Shown here one piece after another: positions 20,633 to 28,733 of a stretch of DNA of 41,101 bases (the stretch's first letter is position 1; each line of letters opens with the position of its first letter). The DNA comes from an uncultured Neglectibacter sp. Its GTDB lineage: Bacteria; Bacillota; Clostridia; Oscillospirales; Acutalibacteraceae. The translations under genes were made by a program, and so were the position numbers. Where the stretch lies: the NCBI GenBank assembly GCA_947647615.1, contig CANSKS010000025.1, positions 1 through 41,101 on the forward strand, read 5' to 3'. Under the pieces are notes generated by a model. It made no database searches. It was given only the letters and a program-made list of their open reading frames with translations, and had not been told where the DNA came from.

Positions 20633-22630
20633 TTAATAGACAGAAGTCGTGATTTCCCCATTGGCACAGTCAAAAGTTACTGCCTCCGAATAGGCATAAT
20701 TTCCCAAAGCGTCTTTCATTTCAAAAACCATAGCATATCTGCCATCCGGTAAGGAGGCCTCTCCGAAGGAAGTGCTCGCTGTGACGGTAATTTCTTCCAC
20801 CGTATAGGTTTCAAAATCGTCATCTCCACTGTGAGACGACATCTTCCACAGGATGGTAATCACATCGCCCTCTTGAAGGAGCCGCATCTCCTTGCTGGCC
20901 ATGCCGGACTCCTCCAACCCGGGGGAGGCGCCTAAAATGCTCCATGTCTCACCGGAGAAATCATAGGCCACCTGAAGGTTATACGCCTGGCCGTTGAGCA
21001 GGATGGGCACTGAATAGAGGTTATAGCCTTCCCCTTCGAAGGAAAGCTCCATATATACAAGATGCCCATCAATAGCTCCCCAAACTCCTCGGAAATTGTC
21101 GCGAAAAATTCCGTTTTCCCAATCGGCAAGTATATCGTTATCGGTTCCCAGCAGCAACATGATATCGTTCTCTTCGTCTACACGGAACAGGGAAAAACCA
21201 ACGCTCGCCAGCACTTTGTTGGCCTGAGCGCCCAGCTCCAGGAAGGAAGTCCCGTCCTCCTCCAAGTCTAAGGATGCGCCTTCCCAACCCATGTCCGACA
21301 GCGTAATAATGTCCGGCAGTTCCTCAATATCCAAAGAAGCCAGGTACTCTTCCCCACCCTCGGTAAGCTCGCCCGTAAGGCCGTAGGAGTACAGCTGTTT
21401 AAATGCCTGACCGGTACCCAGGGCGGCATAACCGTTAAAATTCTCAATGTCGCCATCGTAAACATAGTAGCAGCTCAATCCTGTAGCCTCCGAACGGTAC
21501 GGCCCCCCCACCTGGTAGAGCACGCAATCGGCTAAGGCATCACAAATCCCCTGTGCAGAGGGCAGCATCCAAGCCAGCTTCCGAGCCAAATGGCCCAAGT
21601 CCACCATGTTGGTATAACCCTGATCCCGAGTATTGCCGCCATAATTCTCGCTTTGAGCGGCAACACGGCCCAGCTCGGCAAAAAATCCCGGATCCGCAGC
21701 GGCGGCAACAAAGGCCTCTTGGCCAAAGGTTTCATAAGCTTCCAGCAGCGGGGCAAGCTTTGTCAAATCTGTGACAGAAAGAGTTACCTGCTCCTCTGTA
21801 CCTACCTCCTGGCAGCCTTCGTAATAGGAGTTGCAAATGGCCGTACCCAGGCTGCCGCCATCCATAGCCGGGTTCTGAGCCAGCTCTTGCAGCCATCCGG
21901 AGTAAAGCCAGCCGTTTCCAGGCTCCACCTCTTCAGATGCCACCAGGTACTTGGCAAAGTTTTGAAATACAGCCGCCACGTCAATAGTGGCCATAAGGCA
22001 GGCGTCGAATCCCACCAGCTCCAAAGCAGGATTTGCCGTATCGGCGGGCCAGACCTCTTGAAAGGCCTGATACATCTCGTTAAGATCCAAGGAATCCATG
22101 TCATAGAGCTCATCAAAAGCGGCGCCGCTTACCGAACCACCGCCATGGTTCCAAAAGGTGACCGCCACCTTGTCGGCAGGATAGTTGGTATTGGCGAATT
22201 CCAAAAACTCATAAAGGGTCTGGGCATCGCCCATGCTGGCAGAGTCTACCTCTTCCACCAAACTCATCCCATCCTGGTTGCAAACCCAGCGCTGAAGCTT
22301 TGTGGGGTCGATCTCTTCGTTCTGCCATTCACTGGCTCCGCCGGTCTGTATGACTACCGTCACATTTTCCGGCAGAGCGATCTCCATCATCTCGCTCAAG
22401 TCCGTACTGGCATATCCGCCATTACTCTCCAGATCACTGCCGCAGAGGTACCAATATATGGCCCAAGTTCCCTCTTCGGGTTGAGAAACAGGTTCCGGAT
22501 CCGCGGAAACAGGAGCCGACTGTTCCGTGGAACTGCTAAGTTCTGAGGAGGTTGAAGTCCCATTTCCACCGCAGGCTGCCAAGGATAGGCAGAGCAGCAG
22601 TGACAGTAAAAATGCGATTGCTTTTTTCAT
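20633..22630 (-). CDS. Clostripain-family (C11) cysteine peptidase lipoprotein
   Basis: 665 residues. A lipoprotein signal ends in lipobox LAAC with C20; a Ser/Pro/Glu-rich linker reaches residue 53. The C11 domain starts at TWAIYWYLCGSDLES. The catalytic dyad is visible as H162 in FWNHGGG and C211 in VGFDACLMAT. The remaining 400 residues include a beta-rich C-terminal part (YTVEEITVTAS). It should be a surface-anchored endopeptidase; clostripain prefers Arg/Lys, but specificity here is not shown. AGGAGGAC precedes the ATG. Its promoter carries the 29-bp direct-repeat element also found before the channel operon, which suggests control by the nearby LytTR regulator. Confidence 0.93.
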   Translation of the reverse strand: MKKAIAFLLSLLLCLSLAACGGNGTSTSSELSSSTEQSAPVSADPEPVSQPEEGTWAIYWYLCGSDLESNGGYASTDLSEMMEIALPENVTVVIQTGGASEWQNEEIDPTKLQRWVCNQDGMSLVEEVDSASMGDAQTLYEFLEFANTNYPADKVAVTFWNHGGGSVSGAAFDELYDMDSLDLNEMYQAFQEVWPADTANPALELVGFDACLMATIDVAAVFQNFAKYLVASEEVEPGNGWLYSGWLQELAQNPAMDGGSLGTAICNSYYEGCQEVGTEEQVTLSVTDLTKLAPLLEAYETFGQEAFVAAAADPGFFAELGRVAAQSENYGGNTRDQGYTNMVDLGHLARKLAWMLPSAQGICDALADCVLYQVGGPYRSEATGLSCYYVYDGDIENFNGYAALGTGQAFKQLYSYGLTGELTEGGEEYLASLDIEELPDIITLSDMGWEGASLDLEEDGTSFLELGAQANKVLASVGFSLFRVDEENDIMLLLGTDNDILADWENGIFRDNFRGVWGAIDGHLVYMELSFEGEGYNLYSVPILLNGQAYNLQVAYDFSGETWSILGASPGLEESGMASKEMRLLQEGDVITILWKMSSHSGDDDFETYTVEEITVTASTSFGEASLPDGRYAMVFEMKDALGNYAYSEAVTFDCANGEITTSVY

Positions 22631-22677: not shown

Positions 22678-22749
22678 ACTATAAAGTATAAGCTTTTTTT
22701 GAAAAAATGAGTGCGACAGGCTGAATCGTACCGAAAAAGTACCGAATCG
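22678..22749 (-). promoter_or_regulatory. Probable LytTR operator and promoter of the clostripain-like gene
   Basis: Element 22721-22749 has two 8-bp direct repeats, CTGAATCG and CCGAATCG, with starts 21 bases apart, the two-turn spacing typical of LytTR-domain regulators. On the minus strand 37 bases separate it from TATAGT (22678-22683). No good -35 box is present, as expected for an activated promoter. The element matches the one at 24521-24549 at 26 of 29 positions. Confidence 0.7.
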
Positions 22750-22766
22750 CTAGTCAGGAGCAGCTC

Positions 22767-23600
22767 TTATATATGGTTTTCTCTTTGCTTTAAAAGTTTT
22801 TCCACATGGGCCAGCTGTTTTTGCAGCTCCTCAAGCTCTTTCTGAAGCTGGTTGGGTTCAATGGGTTCCCTTTCTGTACGTCCCTGCTCCTCGCTTACTT
22901 GGCTGATGGCGTTTACTACAATGCCTACCACCACATTCATAATTAAAAAAGCAGTGCATAACACAAAGGGGACAAAATAGACCCATGCCCAGGGAAAGAT
23001 CTCCATCACCGGCCGGGAGATACCCATGGACCAACTCTCCAAAGTCATCACCTGGAAGAGTGTGTAAAAGCTCCTTCCTATGGAGCCAAACCAATCGGGG
23101 AACTCGGCGCCGAATAAAGTAGTTCCCATGATGGAAAAGATATAGTAGACCAGCATAAGCAGAATCCCGCTCCAAAAGATGCCAGGGATAGAGCGCCCTA
23201 TGGCCTCCACGATCAGCCGAAGCTCTTTTAGTCCTGACACCAGCCGAAAACCCCGCAGGCTTTTTAATGCCCTTAGCGACCGCATAACCCGGAAAATACG
23301 GAATATCCGGAAAACCGAGAAGAAGCTGAGGTCCGAAAACAGCGAAATGATTACGATTAGTAAATCAAATAAATTCCAGCCGTCCCGAAAAAAGTGGAGC
23401 CGGTAAACGATAAGCTTCATAAGCAGTTCCACCACAAAGATCCACAGACAAACGCTATCGAGACAAATGAGTACCTGGCGCGCGACATCCGGGAGGTCCT
23501 TTGCCGTTTGTATGCCCATAATTGCCGCGTTTAGGGCGATCACTGCCAGAATGAAGTTCTGAAACAGGCGGCTCTCCACAAATTTTTTGAGTTTTTCCAT
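22767..23600 (-). CDS. Voltage-gated ion channel of the bacterial sodium-channel (NaChBac-like) type
   Basis: 277 residues, the length of single-domain BacNav proteins. Six spans are visible. S4 carries a positive residue at every third position (R98, R101, R104, R107, R110, K113, R116, R119), the voltage sensor. The pore loop reads TLESWS (186-191), the sodium-selective filter sequence of NaChBac relatives. S6 is FLIMNVVVGIVVNAI, and residues 247-273 form a Gln/Glu/Leu coiled coil as in BacNav tetramers. It should be a tetrameric plasma-membrane Na+ channel opened by depolarisation. AAAGGAGC precedes the ATG. The gene follows the 256-residue membrane protein by 36 bases, so they are probably one transcript. 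Confidence 0.93.
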   Translation of the reverse strand: MEKLKKFVESRLFQNFILAVIALNAAIMGIQTAKDLPDVARQVLICLDSVCLWIFVVELLMKLIVYRLHFFRDGWNLFDLLIVIISLFSDLSFFSVFRIFRIFRVMRSLRALKSLRGFRLVSGLKELRLIVEAIGRSIPGIFWSGILLMLVYYIFSIMGTTLFGAEFPDWFGSIGRSFYTLFQVMTLESWSMGISRPVMEIFPWAWVYFVPFVLCTAFLIMNVVVGIVVNAISQVSEEQGRTEREPIEPNQLQKELEELQKQLAHVEKLLKQRENHI

Positions 23601-23636
23601 GGCTTCTCGCTCCTTTGGCTTGAACTAACTACGGCC

Positions 23637-24407
23637 TTAGCCGCCAGTGAAGAAGCTGGCAAGGTTGAACCCCGTAGGCATGGGAATTGTAAACATATAA
23701 ATCGTCGCCAACAGAAACGCCACCAGAGAAATCGCCACAATGGCTATCTTGTTCTTGGTATTGTTAAATGTGCTGACAATACCAAGCAGGAACAACACCA
23801 CGCTATAAATAACCGTCACTAAGCCGTAAGCATCACCATTGGCATTGGCCTGTTTTCCAACCTCCAGTGCTTCCCGGGACTGGGCCAACAGCTCATTGGC
23901 TGTCTCGAAGTACCCTGCAAGATATTCCTCGTTAAAGAACGGCGATGTATATGCCTCGTCGCTTTCCAGCCAAGCAAGTACTGTACCTACAGGGTCAGAT
24001 TTTTCTTCCTCGCTGAGCATGTAATTCCAGCCGATAGCTTCGGCCATGCGTTCCGAAAGGTTTTCATCCAGCTTAAAGAAAAGCTGAGTACTCACCTTTT
24101 CTACCGTGTCATTATCATTTTTGCCCTGGGCGAAAGAGATCTCCATTTGCATATCGCTGACATCATTCCACAACAACATATCCTGGTTCATCTGCTGGAC
24201 TCCGGCATTATATTCGGAGTTGCCCTCGGAGGCCAAGTTGTTACTTGTGGTATAGCTGGTGGCTTGGTTTCCGCCGTGCAGGCTGCCGATCCAGCTGCCC
24301 CAAGCGGTGAGCAACGCGGTGATGCCCAACATGATCACCACTATTAACTCTATGATTTCATCCTTGCTTCTCTTTTCGTTGTGCTTTGAAGGGTTCTTTT
24401 CTTCCAT
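23637..24407 (-). CDS. Unknown three-span membrane protein co-transcribed with the channel
   Basis: 256 residues. A Lys/Glu-rich N-terminus (1-17) is followed by TM1 (18-42), a large loop of about 150 residues that is acidic, Asn/Gln-rich and cysteine-free (YNAGVQQMNQDMLLWNDVSDM), then TM2 (195-214) and TM3 (221-243), and a short Gly/Phe tail. There is slight resemblance to DUF4337-type proteins but no secure family. First gene of the operon: AAAGGAT precedes the ATG, and the LytTR-type element lies upstream. Linkage to the channel suggests an accessory or partner subunit, which is inference only. Confidence 0.8.
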   Translation of the reverse strand: MEEKNPSKHNEKRSKDEIIELIVVIMLGITALLTAWGSWIGSLHGGNQATSYTTSNNLASEGNSEYNAGVQQMNQDMLLWNDVSDMQMEISFAQGKNDNDTVEKVSTQLFFKLDENLSERMAEAIGWNYMLSEEEKSDPVGTVLAWLESDEAYTSPFFNEEYLAGYFETANELLAQSREALEVGKQANANGDAYGLVTVIYSVVLFLLGIVSTFNNTKNKIAIVAISLVAFLLATIYMFTIPMPTGFNLASFFTGG

Positions 24408-24476
24408 GAGGTTCTCATATCCTTTCTAAAAAATGAAGTGCTGCCGACGCGTGAGCACCGGCAGCCACTAAGTCGA

Positions 24477-24549
24477 ACTATAGCATAAATCAAATTCCAA
24501 TAAAAAGAGATCCCTTCGTCCTGAATCGTACCAAAAAGGTACTGAATCG
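24477..24549 (-). promoter_or_regulatory. Probable LytTR operator and promoter of the channel operon
   Basis: Element 24521-24549 contains two perfect copies of CTGAATCG (24521-24528 and 24542-24549), starts 21 bases apart. On minus, 38 bases separate it from TATAGT (24477-24482). It begins eight bases past the sensor kinase stop. Same element and geometry as at 22721-22749. Confidence 0.72.
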
Positions 24550-24557
24550 GCTTAAAA

Positions 24558-25844
24558 TCACAGGCACACCCGCAAGATAAATTGGCCGTTCTCGACAAGG
24601 AAGGCACAACAGCCTCTATACCGCTCCACAACCGCGTAAATGCTCTTGGTTCCAATTCCATGGCCCGGCTGTCGGGACACCGGCAGCCCCTTTTCAAAAA
24701 GAACGTCGTCTTCACAAGGATTGGATATCTGAAAAAGCAGCTTCCCCTTTCTTTTTTCAGAATGGAACCGCAGCTGGATCTCACAGAGCTTTCCCGAAGC
24801 GGCAAGAGGAAGGCATGCGTGCAGAGCGTTCTCCAGAGCATTCGAAAGGATAACACAGAGATCATTATCTGAGACTGTCAAAACAGCAGGAAAGTTTCCT
24901 TGAACTTTCATGGCGATCCCGGCTTTTTCTGCCCGCGCCGCAAAGGCGGAGAGGATCAAATTCACTGTTTCGTTCTCGCAGTACCTCTGGACACGCTGGC
25001 TTTCCAGTTCCGCGCATATTCCGGCAATATAATCTTGCGCCATATCGGTCCGGCCGTTCTCAATGCAGGACAAAAGGTACTGCATATGATGGCGCAGGTC
25101 GTGGCGGTACCGGCTGGCCTGTGCCTGAGACTCCCGAAGGGAACTTATCTCCCGAGTAGCCTGAGAAATTTGCAGAGTAAGGTTATCCTGCGTCTGCTGG
25201 AGCAGACTCCGCTTGCGCTCTTCGGTTGAATCGTATGCCAAGAAGCAAAGATAGGCCACGCCGCAAACTGTAGGCATGAATTCCACCACCACCGGCGCGC
25301 CGGTAGACAAAAGGTCTGTATAGACTCGGGAGAGATAATCGAAGGCGTAGTACATGGCAGAAATAGAACCGAACTGGCATTGATTTTTTACAGGGTACTC
25401 CATGAGCTGCCGGAAAGCGGGCGCTGCGAAATGCAGCAAGAGCAACAGCAACGGAAGGGTGATGACCAGCTCTGTAAGCTTCTGGGTCATATCGTCTCCC
25501 TGGAGTACCGCCATAGAGAAAAGCGCCAGCCAGCGCCGGATTTGGCAGAACAGGTAAGCGGAAAGTATGGAGATCAGCGGCCAGAGCCACTTTCCGGTGA
25601 GAATGCGCAGGAGAACAAGCAGGGGAAAATGCAGGATGAGAGGGTATATCTCCATTTTAAACCGCGCGTCTAAAAAAAGGTACGCCATTCCCTGAGGGAT
25701 AAGCATCAGCGCCATTCCCAACCAGAAGATAAGGCGGCAACGCCGGGTATCCAGAGCGCCGCAGAAGGCTGCAGAAAGTACCCCGCCAAAAATGCTTACC
25801 GCTGCGTCATTCAGCAAGGAGACCACTATCTGCACTGTGTTCAT
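24558..25844 (-). CDS. GHKL sensor histidine kinase (AgrC-like)
   Basis: 428 residues from ATG at 25842-25844, overlapping the regulator stop as ATGA. About six spans occupy residues 1-205. The dimerisation helix has the GHKL-class histidine H248 in RYRHDLRHHMQYL. The ATP-binding domain shows the N box NALENALHACLP and the G box GHGIGTKSIYAVVERYRG. Kinases of this kind often detect peptides or membrane stress and pair with LytTR regulators. A longer frame to 26018 runs back into the regulator gene without a ribosome binding site and is rejected. The signal is unknown. Confidence 0.93.
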   Translation of the reverse strand: MNTVQIVVSLLNDAAVSIFGGVLSAAFCGALDTRRCRLIFWLGMALMLIPQGMAYLFLDARFKMEIYPLILHFPLLVLLRILTGKWLWPLISILSAYLFCQIRRWLALFSMAVLQGDDMTQKLTELVITLPLLLLLLHFAAPAFRQLMEYPVKNQCQFGSISAMYYAFDYLSRVYTDLLSTGAPVVVEFMPTVCGVAYLCFLAYDSTEERKRSLLQQTQDNLTLQISQATREISSLRESQAQASRYRHDLRHHMQYLLSCIENGRTDMAQDYIAGICAELESQRVQRYCENETVNLILSAFAARAEKAGIAMKVQGNFPAVLTVSDNDLCVILSNALENALHACLPLAASGKLCEIQLRFHSEKRKGKLLFQISNPCEDDVLFEKGLPVSRQPGHGIGTKSIYAVVERYRGCCAFLVENGQFILRVCL

Positions 25845-26575
25845 AGCCACACCTGCCCGTTTCTGAAGGCATACGCCAAAAACGCATCCTTGATTTCGTT
25901 GTATTTTCCCCGAGGAATGGGGATCTCCGCAAGGCTTGCCATGGACACCGCCCGGTAAGAAATACTTTGTACGTAGTCCAGGTTCACTATATAGGACCGG
26001 TGAACCCTTAAAAAGCATCCGTAAGGGGCGAGACGGTTTTCCAACTCGTCCAATTTACCGGTGCTTTCCAGCACCTTGCCCGAGGACTGGTGCAGCATCA
26101 GCGTGCGGTGTATCACTTCACAGAACTCCAGCCTCCCTACATCAATGGAGACGATGCTGCCCTTGCACCGTAAGATAAGCCGGTTTTCCCGGTCCCAGCA
26201 GCATTTTTCCAGTACGGAATCCATTACCTGTAAGAAGCTCTCCCAGCGCAAGGGCTTGAGTTGGTAAAAATACGCGTCTACCTGGTAGGACTGCACGGCA
26301 AACTCAGCCGAGGAAGTGAGAAAAACGATTTTGACATCGCTGTCTCCCTCCCGTATTTCTGCCGCAGTTTCAATGCCGTTTTGTCCCGGCATAAGGATAT
26401 CCAGAAATATCACATCGAACTTTACGCCCTTCTTAATTTCAGCCAGCAATTCCACCGGACTGCAAAAGGCCGTATAGGTTATTTCCCGGCCTTTCTCCTC
26501 ACAGTACCGGTCCAGGAAGGACTGTATTTCGCCAAGAGTTGAGATGTCATCATCGCAAAAAGCCATTTTCACCAT
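25841..26575 (-). CDS. LytTR-family response regulator
   Basis: 244 residues from ATG at 26573-26575, with GGGGGG ten bases upstream. The receiver domain has DDD (8-10) and phosphoacceptor D59 (FLDILMPGQNG). The LytTR DNA-binding domain (about 140-244) includes LEFCEVIHRTLMLHQSSGK and FLRVHRSYIVNLDYVQSI. LytTR proteins bind pairs of short direct repeats two helical turns apart, and two such elements stand before the channel operon and the protease gene. The sensor gene overlaps its 3' end. Its 5' untranslated region is about 220 bases. Confidence 0.94.
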   Translation of the reverse strand: MVKMAFCDDDISTLGEIQSFLDRYCEEKGREITYTAFCSPVELLAEIKKGVKFDVIFLDILMPGQNGIETAAEIREGDSDVKIVFLTSSAEFAVQSYQVDAYFYQLKPLRWESFLQVMDSVLEKCCWDRENRLILRCKGSIVSIDVGRLEFCEVIHRTLMLHQSSGKVLESTGKLDELENRLAPYGCFLRVHRSYIVNLDYVQSISYRAVSMASLAEIPIPRGKYNEIKDAFLAYAFRNGQVWL

Positions 26576-26799
26576 ATTGCCATTGCCCCCCTTCTGCGAT
26601 AAACGCATATAAAAAGCCATTCTACCCTGTATTAACTAAAAAACTACCCATTGCTCCGGGCCTGCCCCGAAATGAACAAGAAAAGGAAGAAGCATCCTTA
26701 TGGGGCGCCGCCCCATTGCTGCGAGAGAAAGGAGGCCGTTTCCGGCAATGGACTCGGCACCAATATTTCCCACGTCTTTTCTCAACGAGTTTCTTCCCT

Positions 26800-26918: not shown

Positions 26919-26996
26919 ATGGCAACCGTACGAATTAACAACCCGGTACAGCGGAGGCTGGGCTGTACTGGGAGCAGACGGAAGTGCCGTCAATAG
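26919..26996 (+). CDS. 25-residue leader peptide upstream of the ABC exporter
   Basis: ATG at 26919 has AAAGAGG eight bases upstream. The peptide begins MATVRINNPVQRRLG and ends CTGSRRKCRQ; it is strongly basic with two cysteines and is followed by TAG. The coding sequence overlaps the first arm of the hairpins that control the exporter ribosome binding site. Two roles are possible: a cis-acting leader peptide on which ribosomes stall (basic-X-basic motifs such as K-C-R are known macrolide-dependent stall sites in erm leaders), or a small peptide secreted by the exporter. The hairpin layout favours the first. Neither is proven. Confidence 0.6.
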   Translation: MATVRINNPVQRRLGCTGSRRKCRQ

Positions 26997-27048
26997 CAGC
27001 TGACGCTGTACCGCTATGAAAAACCATTTCATAGAAGAGAGGTACAGG
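26944..27048 (+). promoter_or_regulatory. Candidate translational attenuator before the ABC exporter
   Basis: Four complementary segments are present: 1, GGTACAGC (26945-26952); 2, GCTGTAC (26962-26968); 3, GCTGTACC (27005-27012); 4, GGTACAGG (27041-27048). Segment 4 forms part of the exporter ribosome binding region. Pairing 1:2 plus 3:4 would mask it. Pairing 1:3 (extended to ten perfect bases, 26944-26953 with 27004-27013) would free it. The 3:4 stem is extended by CTATGAAA/TTTCATAG (27014-27021/27027-27034). Confidence 0.68.
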
Positions 27049-27050
27049 AA

Positions 27051-28733
27051 ATGAATGACACAAAGCTAGTCATAAAAAAGAACAGGACACTGTGGGCAGT
27101 CTGCCTGCTATTGGGAGGTTTCAACTCCTTCCTGGCAATATTCAAGGTTGGCTTTTTTCAAAAACTGGTAGACGGCCTGGCAGAAGGCTCTTTGGCTCTT
27201 GGAACTATTTTTCTTTACGGCCTAATTTTGGCAGTCAACTATGTAATGAATTATGTGGACAACTATCCCTATGAAAAGCTAAAACATAATATTTACCTGG
27301 ATTTTAAGCTGCTGGCCTTAAAAAAGTGCAGTTCCATCAGCTTTCTGGCCTACCAAAAAACCGGGACAGGAAAACTTGTACAGCTGATAGAGAACGGCGC
27401 CCAGGCAGGGCAAAACATACTGGAGGGCTTTTGGCTGAAAATCTTCCGGGAACTGGTGCCAACCGTAATATTCAGCATTTGGTTTATTTGGCAGGCAAGT
27501 CCTTTAGTAACCGGCGTTTTGATTTTCGGATATTTCTTTATCTTCCTTGTTACAAGCCTTTTGCTCAAATCGCTCTACCGCATAAAAGACAAGATTCTTG
27601 ACAACGAAGAACTGTTGAATCACTTTCTGGTACGGGGCCTTATGGAAATGGTGACTTTCCGTCTGGCCCGGCAGTTTCCCGCAGAGCTGCAAAAGGCCGC
27701 GAGCGCCAAAAAGGCGATCGTTTCGTCCAAGGTAAAAATGACGCTTATTCACGAAGCGTTTTTCACTATTTTTGTTCTTATGGTCGCTTTCTTGGATGTG
27801 GCAATTCTGGTTTTCGCCTGGCAGACCCATACCTTAACGGTAGGCGCGGTGGTGACGCTGCTCTCGCTCATTGAAAACGCTTATATGCCAATTGCCATTT
27901 TTAATGTGCTGTTCGTGCAATACAAGCTGGACAAGTCGGCATTTGCCCGTTACCAGCGGTTTTTGAGCCAGGAAGATGACCTGCAATTGAATGTGGGCCA
28001 GACAGTCACAAAGCTGCGGGGAGAAATAGAAATCAGCCATTTGTGTTTTCGCTATGAGAATAACCTGCTGTTTTCAAATTTAACCATGCATATTAAGGCT
28101 GGCGAAAAAGTGGCCTTTGTAGGAGAAAGCGGTTCCGGAAAATCGACGCTCATTAAGCTTCTGTTGGGGCTGCTCAAGTACTCATCCGGCAGCATAAAGT
28201 TAGATGGGAAAGAGCTGAAATATCTAAAGCTCAACGACCTGTACAAGTTCATTTTCTATTGCTCCCAGGAACCGCCTGTCTTTCACGGCACTCTGAGGGA
28301 GAACCTGTCGTTTGGGCAAAAATTTTCTTCAGAACGTCTTCGGGCTGCACTGGAGCACGCCCTGCTCCCGGAATTCGCAAAAAATCTGGACCGGGATATT
28401 GGAGAGCGGGGCGCGGGCTTATCCGGCGGGGAAAAGCAACGGCTGGCCTTGGCGCGCCTTTGGCTGAACAATTCTCAGCTGGTGATTTTGGATGAAGCCA
28501 CCTCGGCCATGGACAATATCACCGAAAAGGCCGTGATGCATGGGCTGGTGGAACAATTAAAAGGCTGTACCGTCATTGCCATAGCTCACCGGATCAGTTC
28601 TGTCGCTGGCTTTGACCGGCTTATCGTTTTTCGGGAGGGGCAGATCATTGGCCAGGGAAAATACCGGGAATTGATGGAGAACAGCCCCTATTTTGCCGAG
28701 CTTGTCCAGCGCGGGCAAAACGCGGAAGGCTAA
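27051..28733 (+). CDS. ABC exporter, fused membrane and ATPase domains
   Basis: 560 residues. The type IV exporter membrane domain (1-300, six spans) is followed by the ATPase. Motifs: Walker A GESGSGKST (358-366), Q-loop Q406, signature LSGGE (457-461), Walker B LVILDE (477-482) and switch H513. There is no N-terminal peptidase domain, so it is not a double-glycine peptide processor. It probably works as a homodimer exporting a drug, lipid or peptide. It is preceded by the leader ORF and hairpins and followed 14 bases later by a VOC-fold protein, a pairing that suggests an inducible resistance cassette. Confidence 0.93.
   Translation: MNDTKLVIKKNRTLWAVCLLLGGFNSFLAIFKVGFFQKLVDGLAEGSLALGTIFLYGLILAVNYVMNYVDNYPYEKLKHNIYLDFKLLALKKCSSISFLAYQKTGTGKLVQLIENGAQAGQNILEGFWLKIFRELVPTVIFSIWFIWQASPLVTGVLIFGYFFIFLVTSLLLKSLYRIKDKILDNEELLNHFLVRGLMEMVTFRLARQFPAELQKAASAKKAIVSSKVKMTLIHEAFFTIFVLMVAFLDVAILVFAWQTHTLTVGAVVTLLSLIENAYMPIAIFNVLFVQYKLDKSAFARYQRFLSQEDDLQLNVGQTVTKLRGEIEISHLCFRYENNLLFSNLTMHIKAGEKVAFVGESGSGKSTLIKLLLGLLKYSSGSIKLDGKELKYLKLNDLYKFIFYCSQEPPVFHGTLRENLSFGQKFSSERLRAALEHALLPEFAKNLDRDIGERGAGLSGGEKQRLALARLWLNNSQLVILDEATSAMDNITEKAVMHGLVEQLKGCTVIAIAHRISSVAGFDRLIVFREGQIIGQGKYRELMENSPYFAELVQRGQNAEG

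Follow-up and report, generated by a model that had tools for sequence, protein, structure and literature searches.

Two nearly identical 29-base elements lie near a gene for a LytTR response regulator in the window, i.e. the whole stretch of 41,101 nucleotides that was analysed. The question is whether these elements belong to that regulator and, if they do, what it would control through them. Sequence comparison points to an answer that we consider very likely: the LytTR regulator encoded next to the elements uses them as its operators and would co-activate a C11 peptidase gene and an operon made up of mem256, encoding a membrane protein, and a voltage-gated channel.

The locus and its duplicated element

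On the minus strand, the order is regulator, GHKL kinase, element B, mem256, Nav-type channel, element A, and C11 peptidase:

25841..26575, minus strand: LytTR response regulator gene (Pfam Response_reg and LytTR; start set by orthologue alignment)
24558..25844, minus strand: GHKL sensor kinase of 428 amino acids (Pfam HATPase_c_5); overlaps the regulator stop
24521..24549, minus strand: element B, predicted LytTR operator of the mem256-channel operon; minus strand CGATTCAG-N13-CGATTCAG; also in 5 relatives
23637..24407, minus strand: mem256, a membrane protein of 256 amino acids; conserved, recurrent channel neighbour
22767..23600, minus strand: voltage-gated ion channel of bacterial Nav type (Pfam Ion_trans, PDB sequence search, alignment); filter stretch TLESWSM
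22721..22749, minus strand: element A, predicted to serve the C11 peptidase gene as LytTR operator (sequence comparison)
20633..22630, minus strand: Peptidase C11 (clostripain family) lipoprotein (Pfam Peptidase_C11, PF03415, E 1.8e-40); lipobox LAAC, read directly in the sequence

The regulator combines a receiver (PF00072, 3.4e-13) with a LytTR DNA-binding domain (PF04397, 4.1e-13), both above the Pfam cut-off, and is as such a LytTR-type response regulator. Its longest open reading frame begins at 26620, while the start at 26575 comes from the alignment with orthologues. The Pfam domain likewise places the peptidase in the clostripain family. AgrB is not among the nine window proteins in the Pfam scan, and an Rfam scan of the window returned no family at threshold.

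Elements A and B are identical at 26 of 29 positions, and no alignment between them extends into the flanks outside the 29 bases. Each contains 8-base direct repeats whose starts are 21 bases apart, namely CTGAATCG twice in site B and CTGAATCG with CCGAATCG in site A, and the minus-strand half-site reads CGATTCRG. Both sites have the form of a LytTR operator—i.e. two direct repeats of about nine bases on one helix face, with a period near 21. The coordinates, identity, and repeat spacing are those given in the preliminary description of this DNA, which had also placed the regulator about 1.3 kb from the nearer element; the distance from the end of the regulator gene to site B is 1.29 kb. Across nine aligned copies, 16 of the 29 positions are invariant, and conserved GTAC and T-tract positions are also found between the repeats. 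The element is rare: a search with 27 specified positions of 29, allowing up to 3 mismatches, finds exactly two copies in the 2.8 Mb of its own genome, neither more than 3.1 kb from the regulator gene, and none in the remaining 199 genomes of a 200-genome family sample at the same tolerance.

An ABC transporter gene (27051-28733) was considered as a further part of the unit and rejected, as the 19.9 kb around a 78% identical relative hold no regulator orthologue, the sole resemblance to the regulator being a 63-residue receiver match (32%). The region ahead of this gene (26919-27053, plus strand) contains a strong stem, CGGTACAGCG / CGCTGTACCG, with a fold z-score of -4.3, and a reading frame of 25 codons. 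In another genus member, the transporter with 78% identity is preceded at the same place by a short frame (L133:16125-16199) that is 52% identical to the one in the window, and the region looks like a leader-peptide attenuator.

Conservation of the element in relatives

Searches of 28 other genus members with the channel, the regulator, and the C11 protein found no match to the channel and, over the peptidase part of C11, best matches of 30-38% identity. The regulator's best match in the genus (39% identical) is a paralogue in its own genome, where 23 proteins match it, itself included. No regulator match was obtained in 397 other family genomes at E <=1e-38, a strict cut-off with at most six candidates scored per genome. 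Matches to mem256 are found in 28 of 115 genomes of one family and in 6 of 391 genomes of the class, own included. Some of the samples searched (115 genomes of that one family, 391 of the class, and 236 relatives) are subsets of larger groups, and loci that fall on short contigs are truncated.

It was through mem256, and independently of the element, that a genome of another family (G446) came to light. Its orthologues of the regulator (63% identical), kinase (55%), and mem256 (82%) stand in the same order, with a C11 gene (77%) on the same strand, farther downstream of mem256. This genome has three copies of the element, located before the regulator gene, before mem256, and before the next gene, which encodes a lipoprotein. 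The preliminary description had named absence of the element from relatives that keep the genes as the finding that would speak against its reading; G446 keeps both the genes and the element. Between a MerR-like gene and the pre-regulator element, the same locus also has an inverted repeat, GAATCGTACCC / GGGTACGATT (L184:1030-1060).

The three G446 copies and the two window copies were combined into a five-copy pattern, and 236 relatives of G446 were searched with it at 3 mismatches allowed. This yielded 7 matches in 5 genomes, and a reversed control pattern yielded 1. Chance matches are far poorer, with 8-10 mismatches in the best match to the pattern over 20 first-order shuffles of the window; the zero mismatches of the window sites themselves are no test, since the pattern is partly derived from them. 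Most of the searched genomes of G446's own genus lack the element in this search, which scored them for the element alone.

In 4 of the 5 element-bearing genomes, the element adjoins an orthologous regulator-kinase pair, and in the fifth a kinase remnant. The four regulators are 57, 58, 63, and 72% identical to that of the window, and the genes around them vary: the C11 peptidase is common to 2 of the 4 pair-bearing genomes (75-77%) and mem256 to 1 (82%). For example, the one copy in G1043 lies directly past the kinase gene; a C11 gene that shares 75% identity with that of the window begins 0.5 kb farther on, and a single doubtful opposite-strand reading frame stands in between. The one copy in G1053 lies between the kinase gene and a lipoprotein-LemA set, and that in G958 between the kinase gene and a LemA gene. 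The fifth genome, G993 (L220:8909-9507), has one copy beside a kinase-like stretch (46 residues by tblastn, profile E 5e-17) and no regulator in the 2.3 kb remaining to the contig end; this locus is perhaps a decaying copy of the unit.

Conservation of the predicted operator with the regulator across species is seen, when one starts from the element, in 4 of the 5 element-bearing genomes of the 236, the fifth having a kinase remnant, and, in the direction from regulator to element, in one genome, G446. The finding that distant relatives with the same regulator carry the same element leads us to regard the two window elements as, very probably, the adjacent regulator's own docking sites. The preliminary description had proposed that the LytTR pair exerts its control through the elements and had pointed to related genomes as the place to look for them; the pair's presence beside the element in four of five such genomes supports that proposal at the level of sequence.

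The same copies bear on two other accounts of the element. One is that a small mobile or repetitive element was duplicated by chance, as an identity of 26/29 within 1.8 kb might suggest; yet the genome holds just two copies at up to 3 mismatches, the flanks are unlike beyond the 29 bases, and all five other element-bearing genomes have a regulator-kinase pair or its remnant adjoining, and we find this origin extremely improbable. The other sees the element as a terminator or attenuator, or as active in RNA. Both window copies start shortly past the stop codon of the preceding gene (8 bases for B and 17 for A), and B holds, by eye, a five-pair stem, GTACC-TTTTT-GGTAC. However, inspection of the nine copies by eye finds that stem complete in B alone, with at most four pairs in the other eight, no T run follows it, and the G446 copy that precedes the regulator gene comes after an opposite-strand gene. 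An RNA function is, in our judgement, very unlikely.

The C11 peptidase, mem256, and the regulator have close matches in another family, and the searches of 28 genus members with the channel, the regulator, and C11 gave none as close; this pattern of sequence similarity suggests that the unit moved between families.

Repeat spacing and promoter layout

Direct repeats with the same period are frequent around related regulators. We scanned the intergenic stretches of 58 neighbourhoods of the regulator's genus matches (18 + 40), chosen by overall similarity to the window regulator, for direct repeats of nine bases at spacings from 12 to 44, allowing one mismatch. Spacing 21 gives 42 matches in 32 of the 58 loci; each of the other spacings gives 1-16 matches, spread over no more than 15 loci. 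Taken by themselves, the first 18 loci give 13 matches in 12 loci at 21 and 0-7 at other spacings. As a control, ten channel loci from other phyla have 4 matches at 21 and 0-5 elsewhere. The repeat words vary by locus, many having a CATTTC or ATTCG core, and several genus sites read CATTTCAT. Three loci (L064, L071, and L072, two of them alike) resemble the window in the placing of the repeat, which lies between the kinase gene and the gene that follows, at the former's end or just past it. Two further loci, L145 and L148, have three 21-base-repeat matches each, and several operators per LytTR regulator may be common.

Under the same criteria, 3 of 6 sampled LytTR-type neighbourhoods in the own genome (L058, L060, and L062) have a 21-base repeat, which makes the repeat common and not universal. 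These paralogues matter for the possibility that another regulator, such as a LytTR paralogue, uses the element as its operator, which would then stand here by chance or through cross-regulation. A genome with 23 matches to the regulator, itself included, the best paralogue being 39% identical, offers candidates for such a role; but the three sampled paralogues have different 21-base repeats of their own, and the element follows the orthologues of the window regulator into another family. We consider a different regulator unlikely.

Operator specificity is not readable from the protein by this route. The identity of LytTR domains correlates with the similarity of their repeats across 26 loci (Spearman 0.27, a value reached in 5 of 2000 permutations). 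Among the 291 pairs with less than 60% identity, however, the coefficient is 0.003, so the signal comes from close relatives alone, and the approach was ruled out.

The distance from the repeat to the promoter appears to follow a rule as well. Of 44 repeat sites aligned by a motif model, 26 were kept, some related pairs among them, and 18 were dropped for a model score < 7 or a near-duplicate downstream stretch. A -10-like hexamer, defined by a match of at least 4/6 with A second and T last, peaks in these 26 sites at two distances past the right 12-mer, 30 bases (in 7 sites) and 31 bases (in 5), i.e. in 12 of 26. Other distances have 0-3 sites each, except 54 with 4, two of which are start codons. 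In the relatives, all seven elements have such a box at 29-31 (7/7), and 2 of the 7 have one at 34-37. In the window, boxes of this kind lie 28 and 35 bases past the repeat at A, and 31 and 36 at B. The four candidates are:

24482..24487, minus strand: TATGCT, likelier -10 of promoter B by the spacing rule; 31 bases past the right 12-mer repeat
22685..22690, minus strand: TATACT, likelier -10 of promoter A; 28 bases past the right 12-mer repeat, one base under the relatives' 29-31
24477..24482, minus strand: TATAGT, named earlier for site B; 36 bases after the 12-mer, preceded by TGC, outside the relatives' 29-31
22678..22683, minus strand: TATAGT, named earlier for site A; 35 bases after the 12-mer, outside the relatives' 29-31

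The relatives' box position favours TATACT at A and TATGCT at B as the -10. A shift of 5 bases is half a helical turn, and the VirR boxes of Clostridium perfringens keep the same position relative to the promoter, with the spacing and helical phasing of the two boxes making a difference (5-bp changes between them), as described in sections of PMC2838878; this lowers the standing of TATAGT, which is probably the less likely -10. The preliminary description had named TATAGT as the -10 box, and its positions, 37 bases from element A and 38 from element B, are correct; its role is what the spacing in the relatives (29-31 in 7/7, vs 35 and 36) speaks against. The two TATAGT boxes do agree better in spacing (35, 36) than TATACT and TATGCT (28, 31). 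A scan of hexamers 15-19 bases upstream of each of the four candidates bears out the earlier remark that a proper -35 is missing: the best, TTTTCA before the TATAGT of A, matches TTGACA at 4/6, and the remaining candidate boxes have 2-3/6.

From the element, its rarity, its conservation beside orthologous regulators, and the spacing rule, all plain in the sequence, we infer a course of phosphorylation, binding, and activation, along with the identity of the -10 boxes. The GHKL kinase would sense a signal and then phosphorylate the regulator, two molecules of which would bind the two half-sites (minus strand CGATTCRG), where starts 21 bases apart, or two helical turns, would place both on one face. 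The bound regulator would recruit RNA polymerase to a promoter with its -10 about 30 bases downstream and no -35 box, and the C11 peptidase gene (site A) and the mem256-channel operon (site B) would be switched on together. Among the observations that count against the operator model, the window sites differ in their spacing to a fitting -10 (28 vs 31), and the window has no copy before the regulator gene, where G446 has one.

The regulator might also repress the two promoters instead of activating them. However, the -10 lies downstream of the repeats and clear of them, and there is no good -35; this is the layout of activated promoters, and repression seems to us unlikely.

The putatively regulated genes and comparison with known systems

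The surface protease and voltage-gated channel of the preliminary description can be given as a Peptidase_C11 lipoprotein and a Nav-type channel of the Ion_trans family. The channel matches solved bacterial channels near full length (3-273 of 277, E 1.9e-67 in a PDB sequence search), including a PDB entry named NavAb (7.6e-58); the value of 1.9e-67 is equally reached by a T-type calcium channel, through matches to several domains. A six-helix Ion_trans domain, an arginine-rich S4, and a TLESW filter mark it, as far as sequence features tell, as a bacterial voltage-gated Na channel. The stretch TLESWSM, which we take to be NavAb's filter, is invariant in six aligned channel sequences, window included. 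At E <=1e-20, Nav-type channels are present in 3 of 391 class genomes (own included) and in 11 of 115 genomes of one family.

Of the 17 channel loci, 6 have mem256 beside the channel (window, L042, L044, L118, L120, and L126), and 25 of 31 mem256 loci have no channel in the fetched stretch; a role as obligate channel partner is unsupported by these counts. The mem256 loci examined include L118, L120, L126, L042, L044, L184-L188, and L190-L209. A LytTR protein occurs within the fetched stretch in 5 of the 31 (window, L042, L044, L209, and G446, the last as L184/L221). In three loci of another family (L207, L208, and L209), mem256 and a C11 gene are neighbours, and L209 also has a LytTR regulator and kinase, oriented divergently from this set. 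No Pfam family scores above cut-off for mem256; its fold model (mean pLDDT 85.5) is predicted to be mostly helical and has no PDB match at E <=0.001.

A 21-base repeat lies within 350 bases upstream of the channel operon in 2 of the 17 channel loci, and the other 15 have none in that interval. With only 2/17 loci, predicted LytTR-site control of such channels is not general. In L042, the genes of the channel and a LytTR regulator diverge, with a different 21-base repeat, TTCGTGCGA, between them; this hints that LytTR control of such channels arose more than once.

Bacterial voltage-gated sodium channels are widely used models of nerve channels, and to our knowledge their natural role is little known outside a few bacteria. 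A signal-response switch whose operator can be named, and which also governs a protease and a membrane protein, would offer a way to ask when and why a bacterium makes such a channel, and the 21-base repeat with a gap of about 30 bases to the -10 is a simple rule for finding other LytTR targets in the class. More tentatively, GHKL kinase, LytTR regulator, and 29-base operator could form a portable sensing unit that moves between families of one class with exchangeable membrane or surface cargo. Here, such a unit might make electrical excitability (through the Nav-type channel, of which mem256 may be a partner subunit) inducible and co-expressed with a secreted protease.

Among known systems, VirS/VirR of C. 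perfringens is one of the closest. The VirR box word, presumably CCCAGTTNTNCAC, is not that of our elements, as the nine copies share, by eye, CGATTCRG-type repeats. VirR is cited as being of LytTR type in PMC4847170, and according to portions of PMC2838878, VirS/VirR of C. perfringens acts on paired imperfect direct repeats upstream of promoters, with the alpha-clostripain gene as the sole VirSR target found in all strains compared; VirSR control of alpha-clostripain is also given in part of PMC4963840. The window locus resembles this system in its kinase and response regulator, its paired direct repeats, and its C11/clostripain target. VirR boxes differ in being placed before a -35 element (same sections of PMC2838878), and the targets named in those sections include no channel or mem256.

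LytTR sites more generally consist of two repeats of 9-11 nt with spacers of 11-13 nt and no common word, and the YpdB site has two direct repeats GGCATTTCAT (both from portions of PMC4847170). YpdA/YpdB and other LytTR regulators with a period of about 21 bases share the two direct repeats with the window; YpdA/YpdB has other genes and another word, and the window elements add the conserved GTAC and T-tract between the repeats.

The open-licence literature yielded no paper joining LytTR with a voltage-gated channel, no match for LytTR and clostripain together, and, among the matches listed and judged by title or start of abstract, nothing related on NaChBac with a response regulator or on a voltage-gated sodium channel in Lachnospiraceae. 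The preliminary description had called the combination undescribed. This holds in part: a NavAb-type channel under LytTR control appears to be new, whereas the C11 target has its precedent in VirSR. The channel itself is like those of the NavAb and NaChBac type in its near full-length match and TLESWSM stretch, and unlike them in being rare in its class and in forming, together with the gene of a conserved membrane protein, a putative regulated operon. The locus would thus add a new regulon to a known type, its target being the unusual part.
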